A stretch of DNA of 59,496 nt, taken from NCBI RefSeq assembly GCF_004168625.1, contig NZ_SDWW01000027.1, forward strand, positions 1 through 59,496, written 5' to 3'. The position numbers and the translations under genes were made by a program. The notes beneath the pieces were generated by a model that was given only the letters and a program-made list of their open reading frames with translations, was not told where the DNA came from and did no database searches. This document shows, in pieces, positions 5,071-48,971 of this stretch (position 1 is its first letter; each line of letters begins with the position of its first letter). The stretch comes from Pengzhenrongella frigida. GTDB taxonomy: Bacteria; Actinomycetota; Actinomycetes; Actinomycetales; Cellulomonadaceae.

Positions 5071-5345
5071 GCGCTCCAAGCTCCGGGCAGGCGCACGCCG
5101 AGCGAACAGGACGTGCCGGGGACCGGCTAAGCGTACGCGTGCCCGTCCCCGCTCCCGCGAGCGCTCCAGGCCGGCCGAGTCCCCCATTCGGGTCACGACG
5201 GGGTCGCGTGCCGTGCTGCAGGATTGGGGCCCCACCGGACAATCTGTGGCGAACCACGCCATACAGGGGAAACTGTGCGTAAGCCCACCAGGGGGACGGC
5301 CGACGGCCACCCATGGTGACCTGCAGGGCACAAGAGAGGTCGGAC

Positions 5346-6659
5346 ATGAACATCGCTGTCGTGGGACTCGGATACGTCGGAACGGTGACGGGCGCATGCC
5401 TGGCCGAGAGCGGCCACACCGTCGTCGGGGTCGATGTGAACCCGGTCAAGATCGGCCAGCTCAACGAGGGCATCAGCCCCGTGACAGAGATCCGCCTGGA
5501 CGAGATGGTCCGGAGCAACGTCGACGCCGGTCGCCTGCGTGCGACGAACGACATCGCGGCCGCGGTCGCGGACGCTGACGTCGTCCTGGTCTGCGTCGGC
5601 ACACCCTCAGGTCGAAATGGTGATGTCCACCTCCAGGACGTGCAGAAGGTGGTCGCCGAGATCGGGCGCGCACTGGCGCGGCTCGACGACTGGCGCCTGG
5701 TCTTGATCACGTCGACCGTGCCGCCGGGTACGGTCGCCGACGACATCATCCCGTTGCTCGAGCTCAACTCGGGCAAGCGCTGGCCCGAGGGGTTCGGCGT
5801 CGCCTTCTCCCCCGAGTTCCTGCGAGAGGGAACTGCGGTCGCCGACTTCCTGTCACCCCCGAAGAGCGTCGTCGGGGCCGACGACGACCGGTCGTTCGAG
5901 ACCGCCCGGTCGGTCTACGCGACCTTCGCCGACGACGTGACCCGCACGTCCATCGCCGTGGCCGAGATGGTCAAGTTCTCGGACAACGCCTGGCACGCGC
6001 TCAAGGTCGCGTTCGCGAACGAGATCGGGCGGGTCGCCGACGCGCACGGAGTCGACAGCCACGCCGTCATGGCGATCTTCAAGTCCGACACCCGGCTGAA
6101 CATCTCGACCACCTATCTCACCCCAGGCTTCGCGTTCGGCGGCTCGTGCCTTCCGAAGGACCTGCGAACTCTCACGTACCGCGCCCGGAGCAACGGCGCG
6201 AGCGTGCCGGTGCTCGAGTCGATCCTGCCGAGCAATGTCGCGCACCTCGACCTCGCCATCGACAAGATCACGTCGATCGGCGCCAAGAAGGTTGCGCTGC
6301 TCGGCCTGGCGTTCAAGAACGGAACCGACGACCTGCGCGAGAGCCCTGCGCTCGAGCTCGCCGAACGCCTCCTGGGCAAGGGCTACACCGTCACGATCCA
6401 CGACGAGCACGTCAACTTGTCGCGACTGATCGGCGCGAACCGTGAGTACGTCCTGAACGTGCTGCCGCACGTCGCAGAACACCTGTCAGGCGACTACCGG
6501 GCAGTCATCGCCGATGCCGACGTCATCGTCGTCACGCAGAACAACCCCACGTATGCCTCCGCTGTCGCCGACGCCCGGCCGGACCAGACGGTGCTCGACC
6601 TCTCCGGCGTGGCCCGGCAGGGCCAGGGCGCGGACAACTACATCGGCCTCACCTGGTGA
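5346..6659 (+). CDS. algD: GDP-mannose 6-dehydrogenase (AlgD-type nucleotide-sugar dehydrogenase)
   Basis: The 437-residue protein should oxidise an NDP-hexose to the uronate in two NAD+-dependent steps. An NAD-binding GLGYVG lies at residues 7-12. VAEMVK ends at Lys210, and GFAFGGSCLPKD places the catalytic Cys at 268; both numbers match P. aeruginosa AlgD. The C-terminal third (LLGLAFKNGTDDLRESP, GANREYV) also follows AlgD rather than the usual UDP-glucose dehydrogenase pattern (GFGGSCFPKD). The substrate is therefore more likely GDP-mannose than UDP-glucose, but this is inferred from motifs. ATG 5346 has GAGAGG six bases upstream. A truncated paralogue of this gene forms the front of the chimeric gene at 47034. 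It likely feeds the surface-glycan genes downstream. Confidence 0.9.
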   Translation: MNIAVVGLGYVGTVTGACLAESGHTVVGVDVNPVKIGQLNEGISPVTEIRLDEMVRSNVDAGRLRATNDIAAAVADADVVLVCVGTPSGRNGDVHLQDVQKVVAEIGRALARLDDWRLVLITSTVPPGTVADDIIPLLELNSGKRWPEGFGVAFSPEFLREGTAVADFLSPPKSVVGADDDRSFETARSVYATFADDVTRTSIAVAEMVKFSDNAWHALKVAFANEIGRVADAHGVDSHAVMAIFKSDTRLNISTTYLTPGFAFGGSCLPKDLRTLTYRARSNGASVPVLESILPSNVAHLDLAIDKITSIGAKKVALLGLAFKNGTDDLRESPALELAERLLGKGYTVTIHDEHVNLSRLIGANREYVLNVLPHVAEHLSGDYRAVIADADVIVVTQNNPTYASAVADARPDQTVLDLSGVARQGQGADNYIGLTW

Positions 6660-9214: not shown

Positions 9215-9865
9215 ATGTCGGCGATCCGGAGCTGGTGGGGGCGGTACGCGCGGCACGAGCCGCGGACGCTGCTGAGGACCGGCCTGACGATCCTCGTGCT
9301 GCTCTGCGTCGCCTACCTGGGGTGGGTCCGCACCCGGACGGGCCAGATGGTCGACATCGACCTGTTCAGCCGGGCGCAGTCCGTCGACGCGGCGCTCGCG
9401 CCACCGGCGGCGCTGCTGCGCCGCGGGCTCCCGCCGGTCGGGGCGGTGGCGGTGGTCCTGCTCGGCCTTGCCGCCGTGCGTCGGGGCGCGTGGCGGGAGA
9501 CAGCGGCGGCGGGCCTCGTCGTCGTGACGTCCGTGGCACTGTCATCGCTGCTCAAGGCCACGCTCGAGCGCCCCTACCTCGGCGACCTGGGGTACGTGCA
9601 GAACACCTTCCCGTCGGGGCATGTCACCGCGACGGCGGCGCTCGCCGTGGCGGTCGTCCTCCTGTGGCCGAGGCCCCGGCCCCGCAGCGTCCCGCTGACC
9701 GCGGTCGCCGTCTGCGCGATCGCCTCCCTCGCCTCGGTCATCGGCTACGCCCACCGGCCGAGCGACACCATCGGGTCCCTGCTTCTCGTGCTGCTCGTCA
9801 CGACCGCCGCTGTCGGGGTCTTCCCCGATCGCCGACCGGTGCCGGTCGAGCGCAGCGAGGTCTAG
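9215..9865 (+). CDS. PAP2-superfamily membrane phosphatase, atypical motifs
   Basis: A small integral membrane protein of 216 residues with about five hydrophobic segments. It contains NTFPSGHVTATAALA, the central PSGH motif of PAP2 (type 2 phosphatidic acid phosphatase/undecaprenyl pyrophosphatase-like) enzymes. The other two motifs are partial. KATLERPY has Lys and one Arg-Pro but not the canonical K-x6-RP spacing. In ASVIGYAHRPSDT the His and Asp of S-R-x5-H-x3-D are present, but the Arg position is Ser. ATG 9215 has a strong GGGGGAGG. The stop TAG shares the palindrome CTAG with the stop of the convergent nucleotidyltransferase gene (4-bp overlap). A role in lipid-carrier pyrophosphate recycling is plausible given the glycan context, but activity is uncertain. 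Confidence 0.85.
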   Translation: MSAIRSWWGRYARHEPRTLLRTGLTILVLLCVAYLGWVRTRTGQMVDIDLFSRAQSVDAALAPPAALLRRGLPPVGAVAVVLLGLAAVRRGAWRETAAAGLVVVTSVALSSLLKATLERPYLGDLGYVQNTFPSGHVTATAALAVAVVLLWPRPRPRSVPLTAVAVCAIASLASVIGYAHRPSDTIGSLLLVLLVTTAAVGVFPDRRPVPVERSEV

Positions 9866-11019
9866 CGGGCGCCCCCGGCCACCCACTGCAGGTACCGGGC
9901 GCGCGCCCCGGCGTCGGGCACATCCAGTCGCAGCGGCCGTCCCGGGCTGCGCCGTCGACGCTCGCGCGCCTCGATCCGCCGGGCCTCGACCTGCGAGCGG
10001 AGCAGCACCGCGGCGCTGGTCGGCAGCGATCGGCGGGCGCTGCGGTAGACCGCGCCGCTCAGGTGCGGATCGCCCGGGAGCCCGGGGAACCGGACCCGGG
10101 CGTCGGTGCGGCGCGCCAGCTCGCCCCAGGCTCCCGGTCCAGGGCCCACCGCGCGGAACGAGGTCCCCACGCTCCCGCCAAGGGTTCGCTGGACCCGATC
10201 CAGGATCATCCCGAGCGGCACCTCGAGGCGCATCGCCCGCGCCCGCCGCGCGATCGTGTCCCAGTCCACCGTCGGGCCGACGGCGGCGTAGTGCAGGTCC
10301 GCGAGCCACATGAGCCTGGTCGCACCCTCCTGGGCCGCGTGGAAGGCCAGGTGCACGAGGGTGTCCTCCGGGTCGAGCACGCCGACGTCGAAGCCCTGCG
10401 GCAGCGGCACGCGCCGCGACCGGGCCAGCATTCCCGGGACGTCGGTGCGAAACCCCCGCCGGAGGCGCGGCGCGACGGCGATGTCCCAGTGGAGGTCGAC
10501 GGGCGTCCCGTTCGGGGCGAGCAACGTCAGCTCCGCGCGCCGGGAGCGCTCGAGCAGCGGCCAGTTCCGATCGAGCAGCCGCAGGCCCGCCTCCGCAAGG
10601 ACCGACATCGCGCGGGCGAACTCGCCCCGATCGACCAGGAGGTCGAGATCGAAGTACTCGCGCATGTCGACGGACGGCCAGATGAGCTCGGCCGCGACCG
10701 GCCCCTTGATCGCGACCCACCCGATGCCCGCGGCGTCGAGCGCGGTCGCGATGATCCGAAGGTCGGCGACGGCTCGCATGTGCCGGGCGATCTGGGCGTG
10801 CCTCGCCGGGGCGAGCACCCGCGACCATTCGGCCGGGACCTGCGCGGCCGAGGCGAGCGCACGCGCCACGGCCGGCGCCACGCGATGCAGGCTCGAGGCC
10901 TCGAGCACGTCGGCCGCGGCGTACCCGCTGAGCTCCGGCCCGACCTCCGTCAGGGTGCGCCCGAGCGCGCTGTCGACGAGCAGCCGGGAAAGCGGTCGCA
11001 GACCGGTCGCATCGGCCAT
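9862..11019 (-). CDS. Nucleotidyltransferase family protein (NTP_transf_5), putative lasso peptide tailoring enzyme
   Basis: A protein of 385 residues. It has a helical N-terminal part, then GWVAIKGPVAAELIWP and MREYFDLDLLVDRGEFARA, the KG and D-x-D-L-L-V motifs of the nucleotidyltransferase fold (PF14907-type). A long helical C-terminal part ends in a basic tail. This family often accompanies lasso peptide clusters that also contain an HprK-like kinase. The pseudomycoidin cluster has such a member, reported to modify the peptide further after phosphorylation. The context here is the same: it lies next to the ABC exporter and the kinase/B2/cyclase/precursor operon. ATG 11019 has AGGGGGA five bases upstream. 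The assignment as a tailoring enzyme of this lasso peptide is inferred from neighbourhood. Confidence 0.8.
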   Translation of the reverse strand: MADATGLRPLSRLLVDSALGRTLTEVGPELSGYAAADVLEASSLHRVAPAVARALASAAQVPAEWSRVLAPARHAQIARHMRAVADLRIIATALDAAGIGWVAIKGPVAAELIWPSVDMREYFDLDLLVDRGEFARAMSVLAEAGLRLLDRNWPLLERSRRAELTLLAPNGTPVDLHWDIAVAPRLRRGFRTDVPGMLARSRRVPLPQGFDVGVLDPEDTLVHLAFHAAQEGATRLMWLADLHYAAVGPTVDWDTIARRARAMRLEVPLGMILDRVQRTLGGSVGTSFRAVGPGPGAWGELARRTDARVRFPGLPGDPHLSGAVYRSARRSLPTSAAVLLRSQVEARRIEARERRRRSPGRPLRLDVPDAGARARYLQWVAGGAR

Positions 11020-11073
11020 CTGGGTCCCCCTTCGGCGCAGGTCACCAGCACCGTCCGCATGGCTTGGTTGAAT

Positions 11074-11103
11074 GTACCGACTGCGCACGCTGGCGTGCGG
11101 TAC
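11074..11103. promoter_or_regulatory. Interrupted inverted repeat in the divergent promoter region of the lasso nucleotidyltransferase and exporter genes
   Basis: The 104-bp gap between the two divergent starts holds GTACCG (11074-11079) and its complement CGGTAC (11098-11103), with an inner GCACGC/GCGTGC pair between them. This is an operator-like dyad placed to control both genes. No regulator gene is visible nearby, and the assignment rests on symmetry and position only. Confidence 0.3.
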
Positions 11104-11123
11104 TTGGGGGGAAAGGTACTGCG

Positions 11124-13037
11124 ATGACCTGGACGCGCACCGGCTCTCGGACCACGCCCGCAGGGGTGGCGCAGCCCCCGGGCCCGACGCAGCCCCAGCC
11201 CCAGCCCCAGCCCCAGCGCAAGTCGTTCGGCAACCTCGTCCGGCTCGTGCGGGCCAGCCTCGCGCTCGTCTGGTCGTCCGGGCCCCGGCTGTTCCTCGGG
11301 CTGCTCGCGCTCCAGGCCATGGTGGCCGGCGCACTGGCCGGGCAGATCCTCGCGGTCCAGCACCTGCTGACGGCGATCCTCGAGGTCGCCGACGACGCGC
11401 AGGCCATCTCGGAGATCGTCGCTCCCGTGCTGCTCCTCGCCGGGCTGACCGCGCTGACGTCGATCGCGGGTGGCCTCCAGGGGCATCTCCAACGGGTCCT
11501 GGGTGAGAACGTGGCCCGCGCGATGTGGCGACGCGTGCTCGACGTGGCGACCGCCGTGGACCTGCGTCACTTCGAGTCCTCGGACTTCCACAACCAGCTC
11601 GAGCGGGTGCAGTCGAGCGCGCTGACCCGCCCGTACCAGGTGTCCCAGGGACTGATCACGCTGGTGGGCTCCCTGCTGGCGGGCATCGGTGTCGGCGTCG
11701 CCCTGGCGGGAATCTCGCCCCTGCTGCTTCCCCTCCTCGTCGTGGGGGGACTGCCCCTGCTGCTCACCAGCCGCCAGGAGAGCAGGCTGGAGTTCGCGTT
11801 CGCCGTGTCCCAGACGCCCACCCTGCGGCTGCGCACCTACCTGACCCTCCTGCAGACGGGCCGCGACGAGGCCAAGGAGGTTCGCGCCTTCGGTCTGGCG
11901 CCGTGGCTGCGCGGGCGCTTCGACGCGGTCTACGAGGAGTACCTGGCGGAGCTGTCCACCCACGTGCGTCGCCGGTCGCGACTCACGGCGGTGGGCAACA
12001 TCGGCTCCGCCGTCGTGCTGGCCGCGATCCTGCTCGTGCTCGTCTGGCTGATCGGCGAGGGCGCGGTCGGGGTCGCCGGGGCGGGCGCCGCGATCGTCGC
12101 GATCCGCATGCTCGCCAGCCAGGTGCAAGGCGTGTTCGGGGGGGTGCGTCAGATCTTCGAGTCCGGGCTGTTCCTCGCCGACCTGGACGTGTTCCTCGCG
12201 CTGGGGGCCGCCCAGACCCCGCCGGAGGCGCGCGGACCGGCGGCGCCGACGTCGTTCGGCTCGATCACCGCGCGCGACCTCGTCTTCACCTACCCGGGGG
12301 CGGCCGCCCCCGCCCTGGACGGTGTGTCCATCGATCTGCGGGCCGGCGAGGTCATCGCCCTGGTCGGCGAGAACGGCTCCGGGAAGACCACGCTGGCCAA
12401 GGTGCTCGCCGGGCTCTACGACCCCGACGCGGGGGCGGTGGCCTGGGACGGTTCCGACCTGCGGGAGTTCGACCGCGGTTCGCTCCGCGCCCGCATCACA
12501 GTCGTGTTCCAGGACTTCGTGCAGTACGCCCTGACCGCCACGCAGAACATCGCGGTGGGCCGAGCCGACGATCCGGTGGATCCCGAACGGGTGCAGGCGG
12601 CGGCGCGGGCAGCCGGTGCGGACCGCTTCCTCGCCGGGCTGCCCCACGGCTACGACACGATCCTGTCGCGGCTGTTCGTCGGCGGACAGGAGCTGTCGGG
12701 GGGGCAGTGGCAGCGGGTGGCCCTCGCCCGCGCGTTCTACCGGGACGCGCCCCTGATGATCCTGGACGAGCCCTCCGCCTCGCTCGATCCACGGGCCGAG
12801 CATGAGCTGTTCGCCAACCTGCGGACCGTCCTCGGTGGTCGCACGGCGCTGTTCATCTCGCATCGGTTCTCGACCGTGCGCGGCGCGGATCGGATCTACG
12901 TCCTCAAGGAGGGCCGGGTGGTCGAGCACGGCACGCACCTCGAGCTGCTGCGCCGCGGCGGGCACTACGCCGAGCTCCACGCGCTCCAGGCCGAGGCGTA
13001 CGTCGCGGCGGGTGAGGCCACCCCGTCGGGTCAGTGA
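11124..13037 (+). CDS. ABC transporter with fused membrane and ATPase domains, putative lasso peptide exporter (D protein)
   Basis: A 637-residue half-transporter that probably exports and gives immunity to the mature lasso peptide. After a short Pro/Gln tail (four QP repeats near residues 25-33) come six predicted membrane helices (about 45-330). The nucleotide-binding domain follows with Walker A GENGSGKTT, signature LSGGQWQRVALARAF, Walker B LMILDEPSASLD and an H-loop His in LFISHRFST. There is no C39 peptidase domain, which fits lasso systems where a separate B2 protease removes the leader. ATG 11124 follows GGGGGGAAAGG. The gene converges on the kinase gene with a 7-bp overlap of their ends (13031-13037). 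Substrate assignment is by neighbourhood. Confidence 0.9.
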   Translation: MTWTRTGSRTTPAGVAQPPGPTQPQPQPQPQRKSFGNLVRLVRASLALVWSSGPRLFLGLLALQAMVAGALAGQILAVQHLLTAILEVADDAQAISEIVAPVLLLAGLTALTSIAGGLQGHLQRVLGENVARAMWRRVLDVATAVDLRHFESSDFHNQLERVQSSALTRPYQVSQGLITLVGSLLAGIGVGVALAGISPLLLPLLVVGGLPLLLTSRQESRLEFAFAVSQTPTLRLRTYLTLLQTGRDEAKEVRAFGLAPWLRGRFDAVYEEYLAELSTHVRRRSRLTAVGNIGSAVVLAAILLVLVWLIGEGAVGVAGAGAAIVAIRMLASQVQGVFGGVRQIFESGLFLADLDVFLALGAAQTPPEARGPAAPTSFGSITARDLVFTYPGAAAPALDGVSIDLRAGEVIALVGENGSGKTTLAKVLAGLYDPDAGAVAWDGSDLREFDRGSLRARITVVFQDFVQYALTATQNIAVGRADDPVDPERVQAAARAAGADRFLAGLPHGYDTILSRLFVGGQELSGGQWQRVALARAFYRDAPLMILDEPSASLDPRAEHELFANLRTVLGGRTALFISHRFSTVRGADRIYVLKEGRVVEHGTHLELLRRGGHYAELHALQAEAYVAAGEATPSGQ

Positions 13038-13996
13038 GCGGGGACGCCCCCGACGACCTCGGACACGGCGTCGAGGAGCTGGCCGACCAGGCCGGGCTGG
13101 AACGGCGGGCCCCACGGCACCCGGGCGACGACCACCGGGATGCGCCGCACCAGCGCGCCCGTCAGCTCGAACTGGTTCTGGAGCACCCCCTGGTCCTGCC
13201 AGCCCAAGATCCGAGGGAAGCCGAGCAGCGCGAACAGCGCCTCTCGCGTACCCAGCTGCTCGATGACGACCCGGTCGAGCCCCGGGCTGGGCTGCGGGAT
13301 CACGAGCGCCCGCAGCGGCAGGCGGTCCCGCGCACCGTCGGAGAGCCGGAGCACCTGCCGGGCGTCAGCACTCGTGCGACGTCCGGGGACGTGCGAGTCG
13401 AAGCGCTCGGCCAGCGAGTCCGCCCCCTTGCGCAGGCGGATCTCCGTGGCACCGAGCCTGGCGACGGGCACGGTCGTGACGTCGTCGATGCGCAGCACGT
13501 CGTCCGTGATGAGGCGAGCGCCGTCGGAGCAGAGCAACGCCGCCATGGTCGACTTGCCCATGCCGGAGTTGCCGACGAACGCCAGCGCATGATCGCCCAG
13601 ATCCACCGCGCTCGCGTGCAGCACGAGGTGCGAGCGCCGGTACAGCAGGAACGCGAGGCTCGCACCGGTGGTCAGCACCTTCTCGATCCCGGGCTCCGCA
13701 CCGGGGGCGCGACGCACGGTCATCTCATCGAGGCCGCGACTCACCACGACGTCGCACGACCCGTGGAACCTCAGCAGGGCTGACCCGTCCGGCCGCTCGA
13801 CCATGGTGTAGTACTTCTGGTCCCCCACGCCGTACCGCACGAGGCATCGACCGTCCAGCGGCTCCGCCGGGACGTCGACCTCGGGCCCGACGCGAACGCG
13901 CACGTCGACCGGTGCCCGGGCCGGGCTCGGACGATCCTGGTTCAGCTCCAGGTCGGAGTGGATCGTGAGGCCGTAGAGCAGCTGTGCGGCGTTCAT
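13031..13996 (-). CDS. HPr kinase/phosphorylase-like protein, putative lasso precursor kinase
   Basis: A protein of 321 residues. Its C-terminal two thirds match the HprK fold: HLVLHASAVDLGDHALAFVG followed by P-loop GNSGMGKST, then LITDDVLRI as the Asp-containing strand. The N-terminal HPr kinase regulatory domain is replaced by an unrelated beta-rich segment, so this is not a sugar-transport regulator. In the paeninodin family a kinase of this type phosphorylates the C-terminal Ser of the lasso precursor. The precursor encoded at 15706..15831 here also ends in Ser, which supports the same role. ATG 13996 overlaps the B2 stop as ATGA, so the two are translationally coupled within the A-C-B2-K transcription unit. 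Confidence 0.85.
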   Translation of the reverse strand: MNAAQLLYGLTIHSDLELNQDRPSPARAPVDVRVRVGPEVDVPAEPLDGRCLVRYGVGDQKYYTMVERPDGSALLRFHGSCDVVVSRGLDEMTVRRAPGAEPGIEKVLTTGASLAFLLYRRSHLVLHASAVDLGDHALAFVGNSGMGKSTMAALLCSDGARLITDDVLRIDDVTTVPVARLGATEIRLRKGADSLAERFDSHVPGRRTSADARQVLRLSDGARDRLPLRALVIPQPSPGLDRVVIEQLGTREALFALLGFPRILGWQDQGVLQNQFELTGALVRRIPVVVARVPWGPPFQPGLVGQLLDAVSEVVGGVPAH

Positions 13997-14499
13997 CCTG
14001 TGAGCGTTCCCTTCATGGTCGGCACGACGGCGGTGAACCGCGCCGAGCCCGTCGGATCCAGATTGACGCCGTCGGCCACCAGCCACGCGTGGGCGGTGAC
14101 GCGACCGTCGGACTTGGCGACCCCGATGTGCAGCACGGGCGCGTACGGGCGCAGCACGTGCCCCACCAGGAGCGCTCGCCGCAGGCACGTGTCCGCGAAC
14201 GGCCCCCGGCGCAGGATGCGGTGGGCATCGAGCACCCCCTGGCGCTCCACAGCCGTCAGCGGCAGCGTCGTTCCCGGGGGCGATGCCTCCTCGGGGAGCG
14301 ATGCGCCACCCTGAGCGGGGCCGTCCGCCGCAGGGCCGTCGCCCAGGGTGACCCCGACGAACCGCACGAGCCGGGGCAGCGGTGCGACGCGCAGACCGAC
14401 CTCGATCAGGACCGACCAGAGGGCGAGGCGCACGAGCTGGACCGTGCCGCGCAGCCCGCGGCGTCTGAGCCCCCGAACGAGGCGACCGGACGCGCTCAC
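13993..14499 (-). CDS. Lasso peptide biosynthesis B2 protein (transglutaminase-like leader peptidase)
   Basis: A protein of 168 residues of the Transglut_core3 type, the cysteine protease that cuts the leader from a lasso precursor. The catalytic triad is visible: Cys in FADTCLRRALLVGHVLRP, His in VTAHAWLVADG and Asp in VNLDPTG. The segment LHIGVAKSDGRVTAHAW is the usual family signature. The middle contains an acidic/Gly/Pro-rich stretch (GDGPAADGPAQGG) longer than in most members. GTG 14499 overlaps the cyclase stop as GTGA and has GGAG seven bases upstream. The B1 partner (PqqD-like) is encoded separately at 16016, the split arrangement usual in actinobacteria and firmicutes. Confidence 0.9.
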   Translation of the reverse strand: MSASGRLVRGLRRRGLRGTVQLVRLALWSVLIEVGLRVAPLPRLVRFVGVTLGDGPAADGPAQGGASLPEEASPPGTTLPLTAVERQGVLDAHRILRRGPFADTCLRRALLVGHVLRPYAPVLHIGVAKSDGRVTAHAWLVADGVNLDPTGSARFTAVVPTMKGTLTG

Positions 14500-15686
14500 G
14501 ATCCCGCTCCCTCGCGGGCGATCCCGGCCGCCGCGAGCCACGCCGCGTGCAGGAGCAGGGCGGGGGCGCCGGAGGGTCGCTCACCCAGCCAGTGCGCGCG
14601 CAGGGCGTCGACGCGCACGAGGCGCGGATCCAGGCCCGCGCCGTCCCACGACCGGACGAACTCCCGCTCGATCTCACCGAACCGGGAGGCGCTGAACGAC
14701 GCCTTCGTCGAGCGCGACAGCACGGGTTCCGGGAGCAGGTCCCCGAAGAGCACCCGCATGAGGTCGGTGCGGCCGCAGTAGCCCCAGGCGCCGCCGGCGC
14801 GGGCGAGCGCGGCGAGGAAGCGCGGCTCCTCCAACGGGTGGCGCACCCGGACGGAGTGCTCCCGGGCGAGCACGCCCAGGTTGTGCTCGAGCACGACGGT
14901 CGGGCGTCGGCGCGCGAGCGCGAGCGTCGCCGCGCCCCAGTGCCACGGCGCGCGCTCCAGCCGGCGGACGGACCGAGCGTCTGCTGCGCGTCGGGCGGCC
15001 CCCCGCAACCACGGCGCCACCGCCCGGCGCCACGGCGCGGCACTCGGAAGCGCTGACCGGGACAGGTCACGTACCAGCCGTCGCCCCGGCGGGCGGTGCT
15101 CCCGCAGCAGGAGCGTCCAGGGTGTGACCCGTCGGGCCCCGAGCACCTCGTCGCCGCCCTCCCCCGTCAACACCTGCCCTCCGCGCACGAGGGCCAGGAC
15201 CGGATCCTCGAGGTGCAGCGCCGCCGGCCAGAGCAGCCCGCGGCGGGCGAGCGAGGCTTGCGCCACGGGGCCGAGCAGGCTCGAGTCGTCGTCGGCGCGT
15301 ACGACGATCCGCTCGGTGATCCGCAGGTGCTCGAGGACCATCGTCTGCCACGAGGACTCGTCGGCCGCCGGGATCCCGGGGTAGGTCATGGTCACGGGGA
15401 CGGGCAGCGGGAGCCCCTCCCGACGCGCGACCTGCGCAGCCACGGCCAGCACGGCCGACGAGTCCCGCCCGCCGGAGAAGGTGACGAAGCAGCGGCCCGC
15501 GGTCAGTGCCTCGAGAGCTGTGGCCTCGAGTGCCGCGCGTGGGGTCAGTCCGGGACCGGTCGACCTCGCGTCGGCGCAGACGCCGAGCGGCCACGCCAGG
15601 GCGGTCTCGAGGGCGTCGAGGCGAACGAAACCCTCGCCCGGCGCCGGTCTCGGTGAGACGGCTCGCAGGGCGGGCGCCGAAGCCAC
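14496..15686 (-). CDS. Lasso peptide cyclase (asparagine synthetase-like, C protein) without the glutaminase-like N-terminal domain
   Basis: A protein of about 396 residues. It is an ATP-pyrophosphatase of the asparagine synthetase B fold, which adenylates the Asp/Glu side chain of the core and closes the macrolactam ring. VTFSGGRDSSAVLAVA is the PP-loop, at about residues 68-83. YPGIPAADESSWQ, LTGEGGDEVLG and the C-terminal STKASFSASRFG region follow the synthetase domain. Most lasso C proteins carry an additional N-terminal glutaminase-like domain of about 200 residues. Here only some 65 residues precede the PP-loop, because the precursor gene lies directly upstream. GTG 15686 is the only normal start codon between the precursor stop and the PP-loop. 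It sits at the stem-loop boundary of the hairpin at 15660..15700, so the start is uncertain. Confidence 0.85.
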   Translation of the reverse strand: MASAPALRAVSPRPAPGEGFVRLDALETALAWPLGVCADARSTGPGLTPRAALEATALEALTAGRCFVTFSGGRDSSAVLAVAAQVARREGLPLPVPVTMTYPGIPAADESSWQTMVLEHLRITERIVVRADDDSSLLGPVAQASLARRGLLWPAALHLEDPVLALVRGGQVLTGEGGDEVLGARRVTPWTLLLREHRPPGRRLVRDLSRSALPSAAPWRRAVAPWLRGAARRAADARSVRRLERAPWHWGAATLALARRRPTVVLEHNLGVLAREHSVRVRHPLEEPRFLAALARAGGAWGYCGRTDLMRVLFGDLLPEPVLSRSTKASFSASRFGEIEREFVRSWDGAGLDPRLVRVDALRAHWLGERPSGAPALLLHAAWLAAAGIAREGAGS

Positions 15687-15700
15687 CCGCCCTGCGAGCC
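15660..15700 (-). terminator. Stem-loop between lasso precursor and cyclase genes (attenuator-like)
   Basis: A perfect 15-bp stem (15660-15674 with 15686-15700) with an 11-nt loop begins 5 nt after the precursor stop codon. No U-tract follows, so it is more likely a partial terminator or an RNA-stabilising 3' end than a complete stop. Such hairpins are common between lasso A and downstream genes, where they let the precursor be made in excess. The candidate cyclase start GTG lies at the stem-loop junction. Confidence 0.7.
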
Positions 15701-15705
15701 GGGGA

Positions 15706-15831
15706 TCAAGAGACCCGGGAATCAGTACCCCAGGCGAACCACAGGAACTTGTCGTCGTTCCCGTTCCATCCCTGCGCCAGGGTGAGATCCCTGACCGACC
15801 CAACCTCGGTAATGCGGGGAGATTCGTACAT
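15706..15831 (-). CDS. Lasso peptide precursor (A peptide), 41 residues
   Basis: A small gene between the B1 gene and the cyclase. The predicted leader (residues 1-18, MYESPRITEVGSVRDLTL) has the RRE-binding pattern Tyr2-x2-Pro5-x-Ile7-x3-Gly11 and Thr17 at position -2, the hallmark of lasso leaders. The predicted core (residues 19-41) starts AQGWNGNDDKF, followed by LWFAWGTDS and a final RVS. Asp at core positions 8 and 9 could close an 8- or 9-residue ring onto Ala1. The aromatic run FLWFAW would supply bulky plugs. Paeninodin also starts with Ala, uses position 9 and ends in Ser. Core Gly3 is an alternative first residue but would place Thr at -4. A weak AGGG precedes ATG 15831. A hairpin follows the stop. 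Strong by pattern and context; the exact ring is inferred. Confidence 0.88.
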   Translation of the reverse strand: MYESPRITEVGSVRDLTLAQGWNGNDDKFLWFAWGTDSRVS

Positions 15832-15860
15832 GCCGAGCCCTACTTTCGGTCGACCGGTGA

Positions 15861-15890
15861 AGCATGACGTTCGGAGTGTTGCAGAGCCAA
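15861..15890 (-). promoter_or_regulatory. Candidate promoter of the lasso precursor operon
   Basis: Reading the minus strand, TTGGCT (15890-15885) and CATGCT (15866-15861) are separated by 18 bp and end 29 bases before the precursor ATG. They are a reasonable sigma-70-like -35/-10 pair. Position is good but the match is only moderate. Confidence 0.3.
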
Positions 15891-16015
15891 TCCGTTGATA
15901 TCGGGTCCTTTCGGGTGATTCTTCGCCATCTCCGAGAATTCACGCACACGGGACGAGCCGACGCGGTGGGATGGGTGCGGTGGCCGGGCGCCGGCCCGCA
16001 CAAGGGGGAGTTTCG

Positions 16016-16267
16016 ATGAGAATGCGCAGCGAGGGCTTGTCGTGGCAGGAGATCGACGGGGAGCTCGTCATCCTGGACCTGACCCACGCCGCCTACCTGA
16101 CGACCAACCGGTCCGGGGCGTTCCTCGCCAAGCGGCTGCAGCAGGAGAGCAGCCGGCAGCAGCTCGTCGACGCGCTCGCGACGGAGTACGAGATCGGCGA
16201 GGACCGGGCCGGCACGGACGTGGACGTCTTTCTCGCGACGCTCGCGGAGAAGCGGCTCCTCGCCTGA
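16016..16267 (+). CDS. PqqD-family peptide chaperone, lasso B1 (RRE) protein
   Basis: A protein of 83 residues with the PqqD/RiPP recognition element pattern: LSWQEIDGELVILDLTHAAYLTTNRSG followed by a helical half ending LATLAEKRLLA. B1 proteins bind the leader of the precursor and deliver it to the B2 protease. Start ATG 16016 has GGGGGAG six bases upstream. It is divergent from the precursor operon, with 184 bp between the two starts, so the gap must hold promoters for both. Length and sequence fit typical stand-alone B1 proteins. Confidence 0.9.
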   Translation: MRMRSEGLSWQEIDGELVILDLTHAAYLTTNRSGAFLAKRLQQESSRQQLVDALATEYEIGEDRAGTDVDVFLATLAEKRLLA

Positions 16268-16280
16268 GCCTGAGGTGGGG

Positions 16281-17429
16281 TCAGCGGACCGCGGTCCCCG
16301 CGCCGACCTCCCGGTAGATCCCCTCGTATCGGGCTGCCACATCGGCCCAGGTGTAGCCCCGGACGGCGGTCCGCCCGGCCGTCCCGAGGCGCGCGGCCAG
16401 CGCGGGCTCGTCCAGGAGCGTGGCGATCGCGTTCGCGATCTGCCCGCGGTCCTCGGGATCGACGAGCAGGCCTGTGACCCCGTCCGCGACGAACTCCGGC
16501 GGCCCGCCCCGTCGTGTCGCGACGACGGGGATCCCGGCGCGCCAGCCCTCCAGGATGGTGATGCCGAAGGCCTCGATCCGGCTCGGCACCACGAGCGCCG
16601 TCGCGCCGGCCATCACCGCGACGACCTCCGCCCGGCTCAGGCGACCCGGCAGCAGCACCTGACCGCTCAGTCCCAGCGCGTCGACCTGCGCGCGCAGCGC
16701 TCCCAGCTCCGGACCGTCACCCCCGATGACCAGCCGGACGTCGTCGCGGTCCAGCGTCGCGAACGCGTCGATCAGGAGATCGAAGCCCTTGTTGTGCACC
16801 AGACGGCCGACACCCAGCACGTACGAGACCGGCAGCCACGGCGGCGCCTGCCCGCCGGCCTCCTGTGTGTCGATGCCGTTCGGGACGACCTGCCCCCGGC
16901 CAGCAGGCAGCCCGTACCCGGCCACCAGATGCGCCGCCGTGAACGCGGAGCAGGCGGTGACCGCATCCGCGCTGCGCAGCGCCGCCCGCAGCGCACCCCG
17001 CAGCAGGGCCGACGACTCGAACGCCCCGTCGGCGTCCATGAAGGTCTCGCCATGGCTGCTGACCACCAGCGGCGTGCGCGCGCACCGCGAGAGCGCCCAG
17101 GCGTACACACCGTTCGGCCCGAAGCACTGCACGTGCAGCACGTCGGGTCGGTCGGCCCGCCAGGCCGCCACCCACCGGGCGACCGCCGCCGGCAACGCCG
17201 CGACGAAGTGCAGCATCGCCTTCCCGGAGCGGGCCGGCAACGGACAGGGCAGGTAGCGCACCGGGATGCCGTCGACGGCCCGCGGCACGTCGTCGTCCCC
17301 CTGCTCGACCGCCCACACCACGACGCGGTGGCCGCGGTCGCGCAGCTGGCGGGCGACGTTCAGCGTGTGCTCCTCGACCCCGCCGAAGCGGGGCAGGAAC
17401 GAGCTGGTGACGAGGACGACCGCCGGCAT
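16281..17429 (-). CDS. Glycosyltransferase family 4
   Basis: A 382-residue GT-B fold enzyme. The acceptor domain starts VVLVTSSFLPRFGGVEEHTLNVARQL, with the Gly-rich loop GGVE typical of GT4. The donor domain runs from VSYVLGVGRLVHNKGFDLLIDAF to the E-x7-E motif EAFGITILE, which contacts the NDP-sugar. ATG 17429 is preceded by GGAGG at five bases; an in-frame ATG at 17477 lacks a ribosome site. It ends 13 bp from the B1 gene stop and is divergent from the next GT4. Substrate unknown; likely part of the surface-glycan machinery, not of the lasso cluster, although its end abuts it. Confidence 0.9.
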   Translation of the reverse strand: MPAVVLVTSSFLPRFGGVEEHTLNVARQLRDRGHRVVVWAVEQGDDDVPRAVDGIPVRYLPCPLPARSGKAMLHFVAALPAAVARWVAAWRADRPDVLHVQCFGPNGVYAWALSRCARTPLVVSSHGETFMDADGAFESSALLRGALRAALRSADAVTACSAFTAAHLVAGYGLPAGRGQVVPNGIDTQEAGGQAPPWLPVSYVLGVGRLVHNKGFDLLIDAFATLDRDDVRLVIGGDGPELGALRAQVDALGLSGQVLLPGRLSRAEVVAVMAGATALVVPSRIEAFGITILEGWRAGIPVVATRRGGPPEFVADGVTGLLVDPEDRGQIANAIATLLDEPALAARLGTAGRTAVRGYTWADVAARYEGIYREVGAGTAVR

Positions 17430-17570
17430 GCCCACCTCCGCGCGATCGGGTCGCGCGGGGCCGAACTCCGCCGACATCTGGGCCCGATCATAGGCAGCCA
17501 GACGGCCCGCGTGAGGGAAGATGACCGAGCAGAACCCGGCCCGTGACAACCCGTGCGAAGTGGAGACCTC

Positions 17571-18626
17571 GTGACCAGACGGCTGACCATCGCGACGCTC
17601 GTCGTCGGCCAGCCGATGGGGCAGCAGGTGTACGAGGAGGAGGTCGCCGCTCGGGCGCCGGCTGCCCTGGGCCCCGGCATCACGGTGCACCGGACGGTGG
17701 CGCGGTCGCTGCGTTCCCCGCTCGCCGGCACGGTGCGCCTGCCCCACTGGGTCCTGCGCGAGGCGCCGTCGGGCGCGCGACGCGCGGTCGGCGCCGTGAT
17801 GTACCCGGGGGCCGACGTGGTGCACCGCATGGGGCTGTCGCTGCCGCCGGCGCGGGTGCCGGAGATCGTCACCGTGCATGACACCGTGGCGTGGCGGTTC
17901 CCCGACGAGTCGGCGCCGGAGCCGTTCGCGGCGCAGGAGACGCGCCGGGCCGCGGCCGTCGTCTCGGTCTCGCAGTTCGCCGCCGACGACGTCGCCGAGC
18001 GGCTGGGGCTCGACCACGTCCACGTCGTGCACAACGGTGTCGACGGCCGGTTCTTCGACGCTCCCCCGCTCTCCTCGGCGCAGCTCGAGGGGCTCGGCGT
18101 GACGGGGCCCTACGTCCTGCACGCCGGCGGGTCCTCGATCCGGAAGAACCTCGACGGGCTCGCCGCCGCGTGGCCGCTGGTCCGCAGCAGCTACCCGGGG
18201 ATCTCGCTGGTGCTCAGCGGTCCACCGTCCGAGCGACGCAACACCCTGTTCGGCGCCCTGGCCGGCACGGTCCTGGTCGGGCGCGTCCCGGCCGCGATGG
18301 TCCCGGGCCTGATCGCCGGCGCCCGCGCCGTGGTCGTGCCGTCCCTCTACGAGGGCTTCGGGCTACCCGCCCTCGAGGCCATGGCGTGCCGGGTACCCGT
18401 GGTGGCGGCCGACCGGTCCTCGTTGCCCGAGGTGTGCGGCGACGCCGGCATCCTCGTCGAGCCGGACGGCCCGGCGCTGGCCGACGGGCTCGTGCACGCG
18501 CTGCGGCGGGACGGCGACGTCGAGGAGCGGGTGGCCCGCGGACGGGCCCGCGCGGCCGGGTTCACCTGGGAGGCGAGCGCCGCCGGCCACGCCGCCATCT
18601 GGCGCGAGGTCCTGGACCGGATCTGA
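17571..18626 (+). CDS. Glycosyltransferase family 4
   Basis: A protein of 351 residues, from GTG 17571 with GGAG six bases upstream. The pattern IVTVHDTVAWRFPDE and AAAVVSVSQFAADDVAERLG, followed by VVHNGVDGRFF and VLHAGGSSIRKNLDGL, is that of the GT4 group related to mannosyltransferases. The donor site E-x7-E is EGFGLPALE. C-terminal residues DAGILVEPDG are also usual for the family. It is 76 bp upstream of the Wzt-like gene on the same strand, so it probably contributes to the polymer exported by that ABC system. Substrate is not predictable from sequence. Confidence 0.9.
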   Translation: MTRRLTIATLVVGQPMGQQVYEEEVAARAPAALGPGITVHRTVARSLRSPLAGTVRLPHWVLREAPSGARRAVGAVMYPGADVVHRMGLSLPPARVPEIVTVHDTVAWRFPDESAPEPFAAQETRRAAAVVSVSQFAADDVAERLGLDHVHVVHNGVDGRFFDAPPLSSAQLEGLGVTGPYVLHAGGSSIRKNLDGLAAAWPLVRSSYPGISLVLSGPPSERRNTLFGALAGTVLVGRVPAAMVPGLIAGARAVVVPSLYEGFGLPALEAMACRVPVVAADRSSLPEVCGDAGILVEPDGPALADGLVHALRRDGDVEERVARGRARAAGFTWEASAAGHAAIWREVLDRI

Positions 18627-18702: not shown

Positions 18703-19920
18703 GTGAGCGCATCCGCCGCATCTGCGATCGTGGCCTCGGGCCTGGGCAAGAGCTATCGGATCGCCCTGTCCGGCGACCGGCCCACCACCGCCGTCGAAGC
18801 GATGGTGAAGCGGATGCGCAATCCCGTCCGGCGCAACGCGTACGAGTCCTTCGACGCGCTCGAGGATCTCACCTTCGAGATCCCCTGGGGGGAGGCCGTC
18901 GGGATCATCGGCCGCAACGGCGCCGGGAAGTCGACGCTCCTGAAGGTGCTCACCCGGATCACCGCACCGACCCGTGGGCGGGTCGAGCTCGCCGGACGGA
19001 TCGGCAGCCTTCTCGAGGTCGGGACGGGGTTCCACCCGGAGCTGACCGGGCGGGAGAACATCTTCCTCAACGGCGCACTCCTGGGGATGGGCCGCAAGGA
19101 GATCCAGCGCCGCTTCGGGGAGATCGTGGACTTCTCGGGCGTCGGCAAGTTCCTCGACACCCCCGTCAAGCGGTACTCGTCCGGCATGTACGTCCGGCTG
19201 GCGTTCGCGGTCGCCGCCCACCTGGACACGGAGATCCTCGCCATCGACGAGGTGCTCGCGGTGGGCGACGCCGAGTTCCAGGCCAAGTCGCTGGCGAAGC
19301 TGCGCGACGTGGCCACCGACGGACGCACCGTCCTGTTCGTGAGCCACCAGGTCCAGACCGTCACCGCCCTGTGCACGTCTGCCATCTACCTGGACCGCGG
19401 GCGGCTCGCGTACCACGGCGACGTGCCCAAGGCGCTGGAGCTGTACCGGTCCAGCTTCGAGAAGTTCGCACTCGAGCAGCAGGACCCCGATCGGCGGCCC
19501 GGTTCCGGCGAGCTCCGTGCCCTCGCGGTCGAGATGGGCGAGGACCAGTTCGAGCCCCACGCCGAGAAGAGCGTCGTCATCCACCTCGGTAAGGCCCCCG
19601 ACCTCGTCGGTCAGTACTTCGTCTCGTGCCACATCAACGATCTCAACGGCAGCGTCATCGCTCAGTGCGACTCCCGGCTCGTCGGCGGCTGGTTCGACGC
19701 CTCGCGCGAGCACACGGTCCGGCTGACGATGCGCACCCCGTGGCTCAAGCCGGGTCGGTACACCGTGGACGTCTTCGTCTGCAAGACCGGTGTCCTGGAC
19801 GCCTGGGAGGGGGCGGCAGCCTTCGAGGTGCTCCCGCACAACCCCTACCCGGAGCTCGCGGGCGACGAGGCGACCGGCAACGGGCTCGTTCTCGCCGACT
19901 TCGGCTACGAGAGCGAGTGA
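18703..19920 (+). CDS. wzt: ABC polysaccharide exporter ATPase with C-terminal carbohydrate-binding domain (Wzt)
   Basis: A protein of 405 residues starting at GTG 18703. The nucleotide-binding domain has the P-loop GRNGAGKST at 70-78, the VGTGFHPELTGRENIFLNG segment diagnostic of polysaccharide/teichoic acid ABC exporters, signature KRYSSGMYVRLAFA, Walker B ILAIDEVLAVGD and switch His in LFVSHQ. Residues from about 265 on form a Wzt_C-type beta-sandwich, which in O-antigen systems recognises the terminal modification of the finished polymer before export. The gene precedes its permease by 4 bp. Presence of the Wzt_C domain suggests the exported glycan carries a non-reducing-end cap; a methyltransferase or similar capping enzyme would be the natural partner. 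Confidence 0.93.
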   Translation: MSASAASAIVASGLGKSYRIALSGDRPTTAVEAMVKRMRNPVRRNAYESFDALEDLTFEIPWGEAVGIIGRNGAGKSTLLKVLTRITAPTRGRVELAGRIGSLLEVGTGFHPELTGRENIFLNGALLGMGRKEIQRRFGEIVDFSGVGKFLDTPVKRYSSGMYVRLAFAVAAHLDTEILAIDEVLAVGDAEFQAKSLAKLRDVATDGRTVLFVSHQVQTVTALCTSAIYLDRGRLAYHGDVPKALELYRSSFEKFALEQQDPDRRPGSGELRALAVEMGEDQFEPHAEKSVVIHLGKAPDLVGQYFVSCHINDLNGSVIAQCDSRLVGGWFDASREHTVRLTMRTPWLKPGRYTVDVFVCKTGVLDAWEGAAAFEVLPHNPYPELAGDEATGNGLVLADFGYESE

Positions 19921-19924
19921 CGCC

Positions 19925-20743
19925 ATGACCCGCATCGTCATCACACCGCCCGCCCGCTTCTCGCTGCCGGCGCCGCGCGAGCTGTGGGAGGCCCGCGAGG
20001 TCCTCTACCGCTTCGGGCTGCGAGACGTGGTGCTCCGCTACCGGCAGACGGCGGTCGGCGTGGCCTGGGTGCTGCTGCAACCCCTCGCCGCCGCAGGGAT
20101 CTTCTCGATCGTCTTCGGTCAGGTCGCCAACCTGCCGAGCGCCGGGATCCCCTACTTCATCTTCAGCTACGTCGGCATGCTCGCGTGGAACCTGTTCAAC
20201 GGGATCGTCGGGCGGTCGGCGCCGTCACTGGTCGGCAACCAGGCGCTGATCTCGAAGGTCTTCTTCCCCCGCATGCTCGTTCCGCTGTCGAGCAGCATGG
20301 CCGTGCTCATCGACTTCGTCGTGGCGCTCGGCCTGGGCATCGGGCTCCTGGTCGTCTACGCGATCAACCCCGGGTGGCCGATCCTGCTCCTGCCCGTGTG
20401 GGTGCTCCTGATGGTGCTCCTGGGTGCGGGGATCGGGCTCGCCGCCTCCGCGGTGATGGTGAAGTATCGCGACGTCGCCTACGTGCTGCCGTGGGCCCTG
20501 CAGATCCTGTTCTTCGCCTCGCCGGTGGCCTACTCGCTGGACGCCGTCCCGGAGCGCCTCCACGCGCTGTACAACCTCAACCCGCTGACCTGGTACCTCG
20601 AGGAGTTCCGGTTCTCGCTGCTCGGGCTGCCCGCCCCCGCGCCCTGGCAGATCGCCGGGTCCGTCGTCGTCGCCCTCCTCGTGTTCCTCGGCGGCACCCT
20701 GGTCTTCCAGCACCTCGAGCGCGAGTTCGCAGACGTGATCTGA
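19925..20743 (+). CDS. wzm: ABC polysaccharide exporter permease (Wzm/TagG-like)
   Basis: A membrane protein of 272 residues with six predicted helices, of the ABC-2 family. The N-terminal LYRFGLRDVVLRYRQTAVGVAWVLLQPLA is typical of Wzm/TagG permeases, including the amphipathic R-Y-x-Q-x2-x-G-x-x-W motif. The C-terminal part has NPLTWYLEEFRFSLLG, usual for the family. It forms the exporter with the Wzt-like ATPase encoded 4 bp upstream. Its stop overlaps the next start as TGATG, so translation of the following glycosyltransferase is coupled to it. Confidence 0.93.
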   Translation: MTRIVITPPARFSLPAPRELWEAREVLYRFGLRDVVLRYRQTAVGVAWVLLQPLAAAGIFSIVFGQVANLPSAGIPYFIFSYVGMLAWNLFNGIVGRSAPSLVGNQALISKVFFPRMLVPLSSSMAVLIDFVVALGLGIGLLVVYAINPGWPILLLPVWVLLMVLLGAGIGLAASAVMVKYRDVAYVLPWALQILFFASPVAYSLDAVPERLHALYNLNPLTWYLEEFRFSLLGLPAPAPWQIAGSVVVALLVFLGGTLVFQHLEREFADVI

Positions 20744-47033: not shown

Positions 47034-48971
47034 ATGAAGATCGCCGTGGTGGGGTTGGGAGACGTCGGGACGGTCACGGGCGCGTGCCTCACCCAGACCG
47101 GTCACACGGTCATCGGCGTGGACGTGAACCCGGTGAAGATCGGCCAGCTGAACGAGGTCGCGAGCCCCATCACCGAGATCCGCCTCGACGAGATGGTCCG
47201 GGCTGAGGTCCGCGCAGGCCACCTGTGGGCGACGAGCGACATCGCCGGTGCGGTCGCCGCCGCCGACGTCGTGCTGGTGTGCGTCGGGACTCCCTCGGGC
47301 CGCGACGGCGACGTCCACCTGCAGGACGTCCGGAGAGTCATCGCCGAGATCGGCGGCACGATGGCACACCTCGACGGCTGGCGCCTGATTCACATCACGT
47401 CGACGGTGCCGCCCGGCACGGTCGCACACGAGATCGGTCCGCTGCTCGAGCACAGCTCCGGCAAGTCCTGGCCCGACGAGTTCGGGGTCGCGTTCTCCCC
47501 CGAGTTCTTGCACGGCGACACGGCCACGGACGTCCTCTCACTGCCGCAGAGCGTCGTGGCGGCAGACGACGACCGGTCGTTCGAAGCCGCTCAGTCGGTG
47601 TATGCGGCGTTCGCCGACGACGTGATCCGCCGGTCCATCTCCGTGGCCGAGATGGTCAAGCTCTCGCGCCTCGTGAGCCACGCGCCGCCTACGTCTTCGC
47701 GGCGTCGGCGGATCTTGATCCTCGTCGAGAACCTCGCTGTGCCGTTCGACCGCCGGGTCTGGCAGGAGGCGCGAACGCTCCAGGAGGCGGGATACGACGT
47801 CAGCGTCATCTGCCCGAAGTCGACCCAGCACCCCGAGTCCTTCCAGACCCTCGAGGGCGTCCGGATCTACCGGTACCCGAGCCCGTTCGAGGCGCGCCGC
47901 ACCGCGGGATACCTGATCGAGTACCCGCAGGCGCTCGTGTCCCAGCTCGTCTTGGCGATCAAGGTCGCGCGGGCCGGCCGCATCGACGTCATCCAGGCGT
48001 GCAACCCGCCGGATCTGCTGTTCCTGGTCGCACTACCGTTCCGTTTGCTGACGGGGACCCGCTTCATCTTCGACCACCACGACGCGTCTCCTGAGCTCCT
48101 GATAGCGAAGGGGCGGCGCCGCGGCAGCAGGATCGTCCGGTTCGCCGAGCTGCTGGAGCGGTGGACGTTCTCGGGCGCCACCGTCTCCATGGCAACCAAC
48201 GAGAGCTATCGTCGGATCGCCGTCGAGCGGGGCGGGATGTCGCCTGACGACGTCTTCGTCGTGCGGTCCGGGCCTGACCTGTCGCGCTTCGCGGCCGCAC
48301 AGGTGGACCCTGAACTTCGCCGCGGCAAGCAGTACCTGGTGGCGTACGTGGGCGTGATGGGGATCCAGGAGGGCATCGACTACCTGCTCGAGGCCGCTGA
48401 CCTCCTGGTGAACAAGCGGGGGCGGACCGATGTCCAGTTCACCCTCGCCGGGTCCGGTCCGGAATTCAGCCGCGTCGTCGACCGGGTTGCGGAGCTGGGC
48501 CTCGCGGACAACGTCGCGCTGCTCGGCCGGGTCAGCGAGGAGGTGCTTGCGGCACTGCTGACCACTGCCGACCTGTGCGTAAACCCCGACGAGTGGAACG
48601 AGATGAACGACATCTCGACGATGAACAAGATCCTCGAGTACATGGCGCTCGGCAAGCCGATCGTCCAGTTCGACCTGCGCGAGGGTCGAGTCTCGGCCGG
48701 CGGCGCGAGCCTCTACGCCCGACCCAACGATGCCGAGTCCCTCGCCGACGGAATTGCCGAGCTCCTCGATGACGAGGCTCAGCGGGCACGGATGGGTGCG
48801 ATCGGACACGAACGGTTCGAGTCGACCTTCTCGTGGGAGCACTCCGCGCCCGCACTGCTTGCTGCCTACCGCCAGGCCTTGGCCCGGACCTCACGCGTCG
48901 AGCCGCCCACCGGAGCGTCGCGACGCTCTGGTGGGCGGCGGGTCCTGGACCGGGTCAGGGCAGGACGCTGA
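47034..48971 (+). CDS. Chimeric protein: truncated AlgD-type dehydrogenase N-terminus fused to a GT4 glycosyltransferase
   Basis: A protein of 645 residues. Residues 1-211 are a clear paralogue of the dehydrogenase encoded at 5346: GLGDVG NAD loop, GVDVNPVKIGQLNE, LVCVGTPSGRDGDVHLQDV and ending VAEMVKLS, just after the position of catalytic Lys210. The entire second half with the catalytic Cys268 is absent, and PEFLREGTA is altered to PEFLHGDTA. After a short Arg/Ser linker, residues from about 225 start a complete GT4: RRILILVENLAVPFDRRVWQ, VIQACNPPDLLFLVAL, VAYVGVMGIQEGIDYLLEA and STMNKILEYMALGKP. The dehydrogenase half cannot be active; the glycosyltransferase half looks intact. ATG 47034 has GAGAGG seven bases upstream, as in the intact gene. 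The coding tail runs through a terminator-like hairpin. Confidence 0.9.
   Translation: MKIAVVGLGDVGTVTGACLTQTGHTVIGVDVNPVKIGQLNEVASPITEIRLDEMVRAEVRAGHLWATSDIAGAVAAADVVLVCVGTPSGRDGDVHLQDVRRVIAEIGGTMAHLDGWRLIHITSTVPPGTVAHEIGPLLEHSSGKSWPDEFGVAFSPEFLHGDTATDVLSLPQSVVAADDDRSFEAAQSVYAAFADDVIRRSISVAEMVKLSRLVSHAPPTSSRRRRILILVENLAVPFDRRVWQEARTLQEAGYDVSVICPKSTQHPESFQTLEGVRIYRYPSPFEARRTAGYLIEYPQALVSQLVLAIKVARAGRIDVIQACNPPDLLFLVALPFRLLTGTRFIFDHHDASPELLIAKGRRRGSRIVRFAELLERWTFSGATVSMATNESYRRIAVERGGMSPDDVFVVRSGPDLSRFAAAQVDPELRRGKQYLVAYVGVMGIQEGIDYLLEAADLLVNKRGRTDVQFTLAGSGPEFSRVVDRVAELGLADNVALLGRVSEEVLAALLTTADLCVNPDEWNEMNDISTMNKILEYMALGKPIVQFDLREGRVSAGGASLYARPNDAESLADGIAELLDDEAQRARMGAIGHERFESTFSWEHSAPALLAAYRQALARTSRVEPPTGASRRSGGRRVLDRVRAGR
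48902..48939 (-). terminator. Long hairpin in the tail of the chimeric gene, probable terminator of the convergent secreted-protein gene
   Basis: GCCGCCCACC-G-GAGCGTCG (48902-48920) pairs with CGACGCTC-T-GGTGGGCGGC (48921-48939), 18 Watson-Crick pairs plus one G-U on the plus strand. The innermost bases must open to form a loop. It lies 49 bases beyond the stop of the minus-strand gene at 48988 and 30 bases before the stop of the plus-strand chimera, so it can end transcription from the right while being translated from the left. Confidence 0.6.

Follow-up and report, generated by a model that had tools for sequence, protein, structure and literature searches.

The DNA stretch analyzed here, 59,496 nucleotides of Pengzhenrongella frigida (contig NZ_SDWW01000027.1; the window), carries an intact lasso-peptide gene cluster of seven genes at positions 9862-16267. 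With a probability of roughly 0.8, this cluster directs the synthesis of a cysteine-free lasso peptide that is phosphorylated and probably phosphoglycosylated, and it is part of a clade of actinobacterial clusters in which the cyclase has no N-terminal domain. What was observed here is the gene content, the conservation of catalytic residues and of the precursor, the truncation of the cyclase, and a tie between a C-terminal serine and the kinase. A first-pass annotation, made from the letters alone, had proposed the seven-gene pathway, and this was confirmed: all seven open reading frames (ORFs) were intact at the coordinates it gave, the precursor and the leader peptidase B2 exceeded the cut-offs of lasso models, and the leader-binding protein B1, the cyclase, the nucleotidyltransferase, and the exporter those of PqqD, Asn_synthase, NTP_transf_5, and ABC_tran, respectively. 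Membership in the lasso class rests on the precursor (A), B1, B2, and the cyclase (C); the absence of the N-terminal domain from the latter departs from the usual form.

The precursor gene (15706..15831, minus strand) encodes 41 amino acids, which matched the NCBIfam model lasso_leader_L3 with 29.5 bits (cut-off 19) and could be aligned with 41 other precursors. The border between the leader, MYESPRITEVGSVRDLTL (15778-15831), and the core, AQGWNGNDDKFLWFAWGTDSRVS (15709-15777), both on the minus strand, was placed according to Thr at position -2. The leader contains YESPRI, i.e., it is of the YxxP type, and the core starts with A1 Q2 G3 W4 N5 G6 N7 D8 D9, with both acids within positions 7-9, and ends with Ser23; the likely ring spans Ala1 to Asp9. 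Every element of the pattern named beforehand (Y-x2-P-x-I-x3-G, Thr at -2, Asp8/Asp9, and terminal Ser) is present. Across the 42 distinct precursors (window included), the common form of the leader is YEaPxIxEvGSVxdLTL; Thr at -2 was required by the search pattern and its occurrence in 42/42 is therefore no evidence. The set comprised 37 precursors found by profile (33/37 with terminal Ser, 30/37 with Asp9) and five found by a pattern that also demanded a downstream acid (5/5 and 2/5, respectively), and identical copies in L026, L029, L045, and L070 were excluded. Because Asp occupies core position 9 in 32/42 precursors and position 8 in only 7/42, an acid at position 9 being the most conserved core residue, Asp9 is most likely the ring acceptor in the window, as judged from the alignment, which refines the earlier proposal of position 8 or 9. 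Five precursors from Isoptericola (L037, L038, L039, L044, and L048) have, by the Thr(-2) rule, a core starting with Glu and an Asp at position 9; such a first residue would be unusual.

The cyclase gene (14496..15686, minus strand) probably starts at GTG 15686 and then encodes 396 amino acids, which comprise the ATP domain only: the protein matched Asn_synthase (PF00733) with 52 bits (cut-off 21) and, like its relatives, lacks the N-terminal amidotransferase-like domain of full-length lasso cyclases, a truncation that the first-pass annotation had missed. A longer frame running over the precursor (from TTG 15803) was ruled out; the frames of relatives are closed just upstream, with stop-to-stop lengths of 392 (L025), 390 (L034), and 383 (L043) codons. 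Phylogenetically, the short cyclases formed one branch (30 rows; Shimodaira-Hasegawa approximate likelihood ratio test, 100) apart from full-length lasso cyclases. L196, the cyclase of which is split over two frames, was mislabeled as short, hence the count "changes = 2", and near copies or fragments (L026, L029, L031, L036, L039, L040, L044, L045, L047, L049, and L188) were left out of the tree. Irrespective of the truncation, SGGxDSS, TG..GDE, R325, and K328 are invariant in a 30-row alignment, and the predicted structure (predicted local distance difference test [pLDDT], 90.7) resembles most closely TsnB9 and the asparagine, carbapenam, and beta-lactam synthetases. A single set of B1, B2, kinase, and exporter is shared by two precursors and two short cyclases at three loci (L057, 6499-14443; L034; and L043), where a nucleotidyltransferase is also present.

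The HprK-like kinase K (13031..13996, minus strand; 321 amino acids) has His127, Lys148, Asp165, and Asp166 invariant in 22/22 rows of its alignment. The distances within this motif (21 and 17) are the same as between H148, K169, and D186 in BsfK, where mutating residues of this type lowered activity (PMC10368454). The nucleotidyltransferase N (9862..11019, minus strand; 385 amino acids) matched NTP_transf_5 (PF14907) with 129 bits (cut-off 31.2), and K105, G106, D124, D126, and D175 are invariant in 19/19 rows. The last residue was Ser in 38 of the 42 family precursors (otherwise Arg in two, Pro in one, and Gly in one, the penultimate residue being variable) compared with 0/16 candidates at kinase-free actinobacterial lasso loci, where the last residue is G, W, I, Y, R, N, or A; the Fisher tests applied assume independent rows, an assumption that does not hold. 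The control set consisted of 40 actinomycete B2 loci outside the short-cyclase clade, from which candidates were kept only when an acid was present at core positions 7-9, with some leader/core borders being doubtful (L169, L188, and L192). Excluded as not credible or not lasso were those of L180 (Ser end, no cyclase), L184 (two, Arg), and L187 (Val), and the second of L092 (Leu). At kinase loci with full-length cyclases, terminal Ser was found in 5/7 precursors (L185, L195, L203, and L204, actinobacterial; L092, L094, and L095, plasmid-borne in other phyla). The lasso pathway with kinase and nucleotidyltransferase proposed at the outset is supported by profiles, conserved catalytic residues, and homologous precursors, and the terminal Ser goes with the kinase. 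The precursors of L059 and L060 end in Ser-Arg despite the presence of kinase and N; the Arg may be trimmed off, or another site may be the target. Two other loci (L180, 7575-10678, and L181, 6837-9978) hold compact sets of B1, B2, HprK-like kinase, and NTP_transf_5, and no cyclase was detected there by two profiles or among ten neighboring ORFs checked with Pfam; these loci of Actinomycetes may make phosphopeptides without a cyclase, B2 acting as the peptidase.

The leader peptidase B2 (13993..14499, minus strand; 168 amino acids) matched lasso_biosyn_B2 (NF033537) with 42.7 bits (cut-off 33) and Transglut_core3 (PF13471) with 41.8 bits (cut-off 26), and its Cys105, His137, and Asp148 are invariant in a 22-row alignment. 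The PqqD-like protein B1 (16016..16267, plus strand) scored 54.9 bits against PqqD (PF05402; cut-off 23.4). The ABC exporter (11166..13037, plus strand; start uncertain, ATG 11124 being also possible) scored 116 bits against ABC_tran (cut-off 25), its best NCBIfam model being MsbA, below cut-off (278 versus 602 bits). A, C, B2, and K lie co-directionally on the minus strand, with 4-base overlaps between C and B2 (GTGA) and between B2 and K (ATGA); the exporter gene is convergent to them, N lies beyond it, and B1 is divergent from A. Scanning 15700-16100 for sigma-70 promoters and terminators revealed none. The 4.3-Mb genome contains one match to the window cyclase and one to Transglut_core3.

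Searching a collection of species genomes with the cyclase yielded 34 contigs, of which 31 (L021-L051) were strong matches, from Isoptericola, Jiangella, Nocardioides, Amycolatopsis, and others, and three (L052-L054) weak. The absence of homologous precursors next to B1 and cyclase genes in relatives had been named as evidence that would speak against the pathway; a candidate was present in 30/31 strong contigs, the exception being the 3.8-kb contig L049. Within the stretches retrieved, the kinase was found in 29/31 and N in 20/31 contigs, the two without kinase (L046 and L049) being cut by contig ends. The cyclase occurs in 18/200 genomes of the family and 20/394 of the class, own genome included. 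The core AQGWNGNDDKF... was found in no other locus retrieved (nearest, AQGLDGNDDRF... of Isoptericola sp. 4D.3); actinobacterial versions as such are not unique to this genome.

By analogy with characterized relatives, the order of steps, the exact modification, threading, and export may be envisaged as follows. B1 would bind the YxxPxI leader, and phosphorylation of the precursor by K, at its C-terminal Ser, would precede threading. B2 would then cut after Leu(-1), with Thr at -2, and C would adenylate Asp9 and close the Ala1-Asp9 ring around the tail with its asparagine-synthetase-type ATP domain alone. N would decorate the phosphate with a hexose (or a nucleotide), and the MsbA-like ABC protein would export the product, the chemistry and function of which we infer. 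This scheme draws on PadeK, which phosphorylates the terminal Ser of the paeninodin precursor, and on PsmN, which attaches one or two hexoses to such a phosphate (PMC9266682, PMC8498205).

The pseudomycoidin (psm) and paeninodin (pade) clusters of Bacillales likewise comprise precursor, B1, B2, C, HprK-like kinase, and exporter, with a terminal Ser, and psm, like the window cluster, has a nucleotidyltransferase. That the system works like these two, via terminal Ser and kinase, is well supported. Assignment to paeninodin in the strict sense is not supported because the leader is of the Y type, whereas WxxP is described as nearly invariant in paeninodin-like precursors (PMC13381572); furthermore, the cyclase domain absent here is kept at L092, a WxxP-type locus on a Paenibacillus plasmid. 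The Bsf cluster of Bradymonas sediminis also contains A, B1, B2, C, exporter, kinase, and nucleotidyltransferase, but the target of BsfK is Ser3, and the precursor has Ile at -2 and Asp as its last residue (PMC10368454). The linear polyphosphorylated peptides (LPPs) of Bacillota likewise combine a discrete leader-binding protein with an HprK-like kinase, an NTP transferase, and an MsbA-like exporter, and are encoded in capsular loci, but their core genes, as described, include a SipW-like peptidase and no cyclase (PMC13381572), whereas the window has B2, and a macrolactam cyclase gene between A and B2. The same source calls paeninodins and LPPs restricted to Bacillota. Within Actinomycetota, Isoptericola sp. 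AK164 (L048) has all seven genes, including a short cyclase, and a different core (EGQFALDYDGHLF...). Its genome paper reports a lasso cluster found by antiSMASH, presumably the same one, and the passages on that cluster name no product or tailoring (PMC10425560); the lasso class of such clusters is therefore already known. As far as the literature was searched, the truncated cyclase and the link to surface glycans (see below) are new: no description was found of lasso cyclases that are truncated or of a kinase/nucleotidyltransferase lasso product from an actinobacterium, a RODEO survey that may list such clusters lying outside the search.

Several observations weigh against a phosphorylated lasso peptide as the product. 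The cyclase stayed far below the NCBIfam lasso cyclase model NF033535 (13.1 versus 525 bits), so that, of the lasso profiles named beforehand as a check, B2 passed and the cyclase passed the general Asn_synthase only. NF033535 was dropped as a test of cyclase identity; its failure says little here because it matched 0/148 actinomycete genomes (E 1e-60). B1 was below both lasso PqqD models (43.5 versus 70 and 35.7 versus 80 bits) and the kinase below Hpr_kinase_C (26.2 versus 33.3 bits) and HprK_rel_A (33.8 versus 200 bits). Asp9 is missing from 10/42 precursors and the terminal Ser from 4/42, two of which (those with Ser-Arg ends) lie beside a kinase; a kinase of the BsfK kind can use a site other than the terminal Ser (PMC10368454). 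Finally, N is separated by the convergent exporter gene and was not present within the retrieved stretch in 11/31 contigs. The truncated C might, then, not be a working lasso cyclase but form an unthreaded ring or another amide, or be decayed, leaving a linear or simply cyclic, LPP-like phosphopeptide. In agreement with such a product, the domain it lacks is present in the lasso cyclases compared, LPP loci resemble the window in having a kinase, an NTP transferase, and an MsbA-like exporter in a capsular setting, and some precursors are devoid of Asp9. Against it stand the invariant ATP-site residues, the truncation being common to one whole branch, the conservation of the acid at ring position 9, and the presence of B2; we consider it improbable.

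A different question, concerning only the modification, is whether N is a true nucleotidyltransferase that would put a nucleoside monophosphate rather than a hexose on the phosphorylated Ser. The modeled fold of N (pLDDT 91) is nearest to nucleotidyltransferases (MenT1, E 7e-5; LnuA and ANT(2'') weaker), and the sugar-phosphate transferase FKRP was matched with E 0.05 only; searching PDB sequences with the N profile gave no convincing match. According to a review, it was not excluded that PsmN acts by nucleotidylation and that the host then glycosylates the product, yet this tested relative gave hexose-bearing products in E. coli (PMC9266682, PMC8498205). Transfer of a nucleotide is less likely than not, albeit a serious contender, and a phosphoglycosylated lasso peptide remains our preferred product.

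The cluster is embedded in a surface-glycan island, as had been noted from the sequence; that this setting recurs among relatives had gone unnoticed. It adjoins a glycosyltransferase gene of the GT4 family (16281-17453, minus strand), followed by a second GT4 gene (17571-18626), a Wzt-like ATPase gene (18730-19920), and an ABC-2 permease gene (19925-20743), all three on the plus strand and assigned by Pfam; the island extends to position ~45.4 kb and also encodes GT2, a pyruvyl transferase, and a Wzy-like ligase. On its two sides, at 5313-6659 and 47034-48971, lie genes whose starts closely resemble each other (MNIAVVGLGYVGTVTGACLAESG / MKIAVVGLGDVGTVTGACLTQTG); we take both to be UDP-sugar-dehydrogenase-like. 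In ten genomes of the family, island-like genes made up 90/288 in 20 lasso-flanking stretches of 13 to 18 kb (7 of the 90 matching the gene at 1363, the role of which is not known) compared with 16/318 in 20 stretches elsewhere (19 from nine of the genomes and one from G047). With a strict glycan set, the counts were 73/288 versus 12/318, and at least three island-like genes were found in 11/20 versus 3/20 stretches. Near 22 short-cyclase loci, strict glycan genes accounted for 26/201 neighbors at 13/22 loci, compared with 0/292 neighbors at 0/25 kinase-free lasso loci (48/201 versus 11/292 when any similarity was counted); these 22 were chosen among the 31, and the query genes were all taken from the window, favoring its kin. 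Actinobacterial kinase loci with full-length cyclases gave only 1/34 neighbors (1/6 loci), which speaks against a general glycan rule for kinase-type clusters. A kinase match was found in 21 plasmid records, 12 of which were examined (H16 was unannotated; H25, H26, and H28 are not lasso loci), and eight held cyclase, PqqD-like protein, and kinase. Clear polysaccharide genes were found in Butyrivibrio, Paracoccus, Sulfitobacter, and two Azospirillum, and suggestive ones in Halopiger (flippase and sulfatases) and Thalassobaculum (galE and sulfotransferase); the Tistrella locus (H10), where no B2 is annotated, had no polysaccharide genes. A 2026 paper places Bacilli lasso loci of like make-up inside capsular loci (PMC13381572).

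Polysaccharide islands often swap genes, and the neighborhood might be a mere hot spot, with the lasso cluster lacking any functional tie to it. Glycan genes were, after all, not near 5/18 short-cyclase loci in a smaller test, nor 9/22 by the strict set, and the full-length-cyclase and Tistrella loci point the same way. The 13/22 versus 0/25 contrast and the like setting on plasmids of other phyla and in Bacilli argue for a tie, which leaves the hot spot at slightly less than even odds. Because the cluster often lies in surface-polysaccharide loci, our guess is a role at the cell envelope.

Beyond the clade, the Halopiger xanaduensis plasmid locus (L093, 7431-12536; haloarchaeal) has B1, B2, a full-length cyclase, a kinase-like protein, and NTP_transf_5 adjoining the flippase and sulfatases; the precursor pattern found no precursor there. 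On a Sphingomonas parapaucimobilis plasmid (L210, 7981-10604), an "HPr-rel-A system" PqqD chaperone, an HprK-related kinase A, and a nucleotidyltransferase form the same tailoring trio in a non-lasso setting, with no lasso genes in the stretch shown.

According to a 2026 review, lasso cyclases still lack a crystal structure (PMC13352647). A natural cyclase of ~390 amino acids without the N-terminal domain is a compact structural target and raises the question of what that domain does. More speculatively, and with a rather low probability, the clade may represent a minimal lasso cyclase that threads and closes with the ATP domain alone, and its phosphoglycosylated lasso peptides may be envelope components, with the Ser-phosphate-sugar as a link or recognition tag to the polysaccharide of the neighboring genes. 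The tie between kinase and terminal Ser, together with a glycan neighborhood not seen at the sampled kinase-free loci, suggests what phospho(glyco) lasso peptides might be for, as a hypothesis that can be put to the test.

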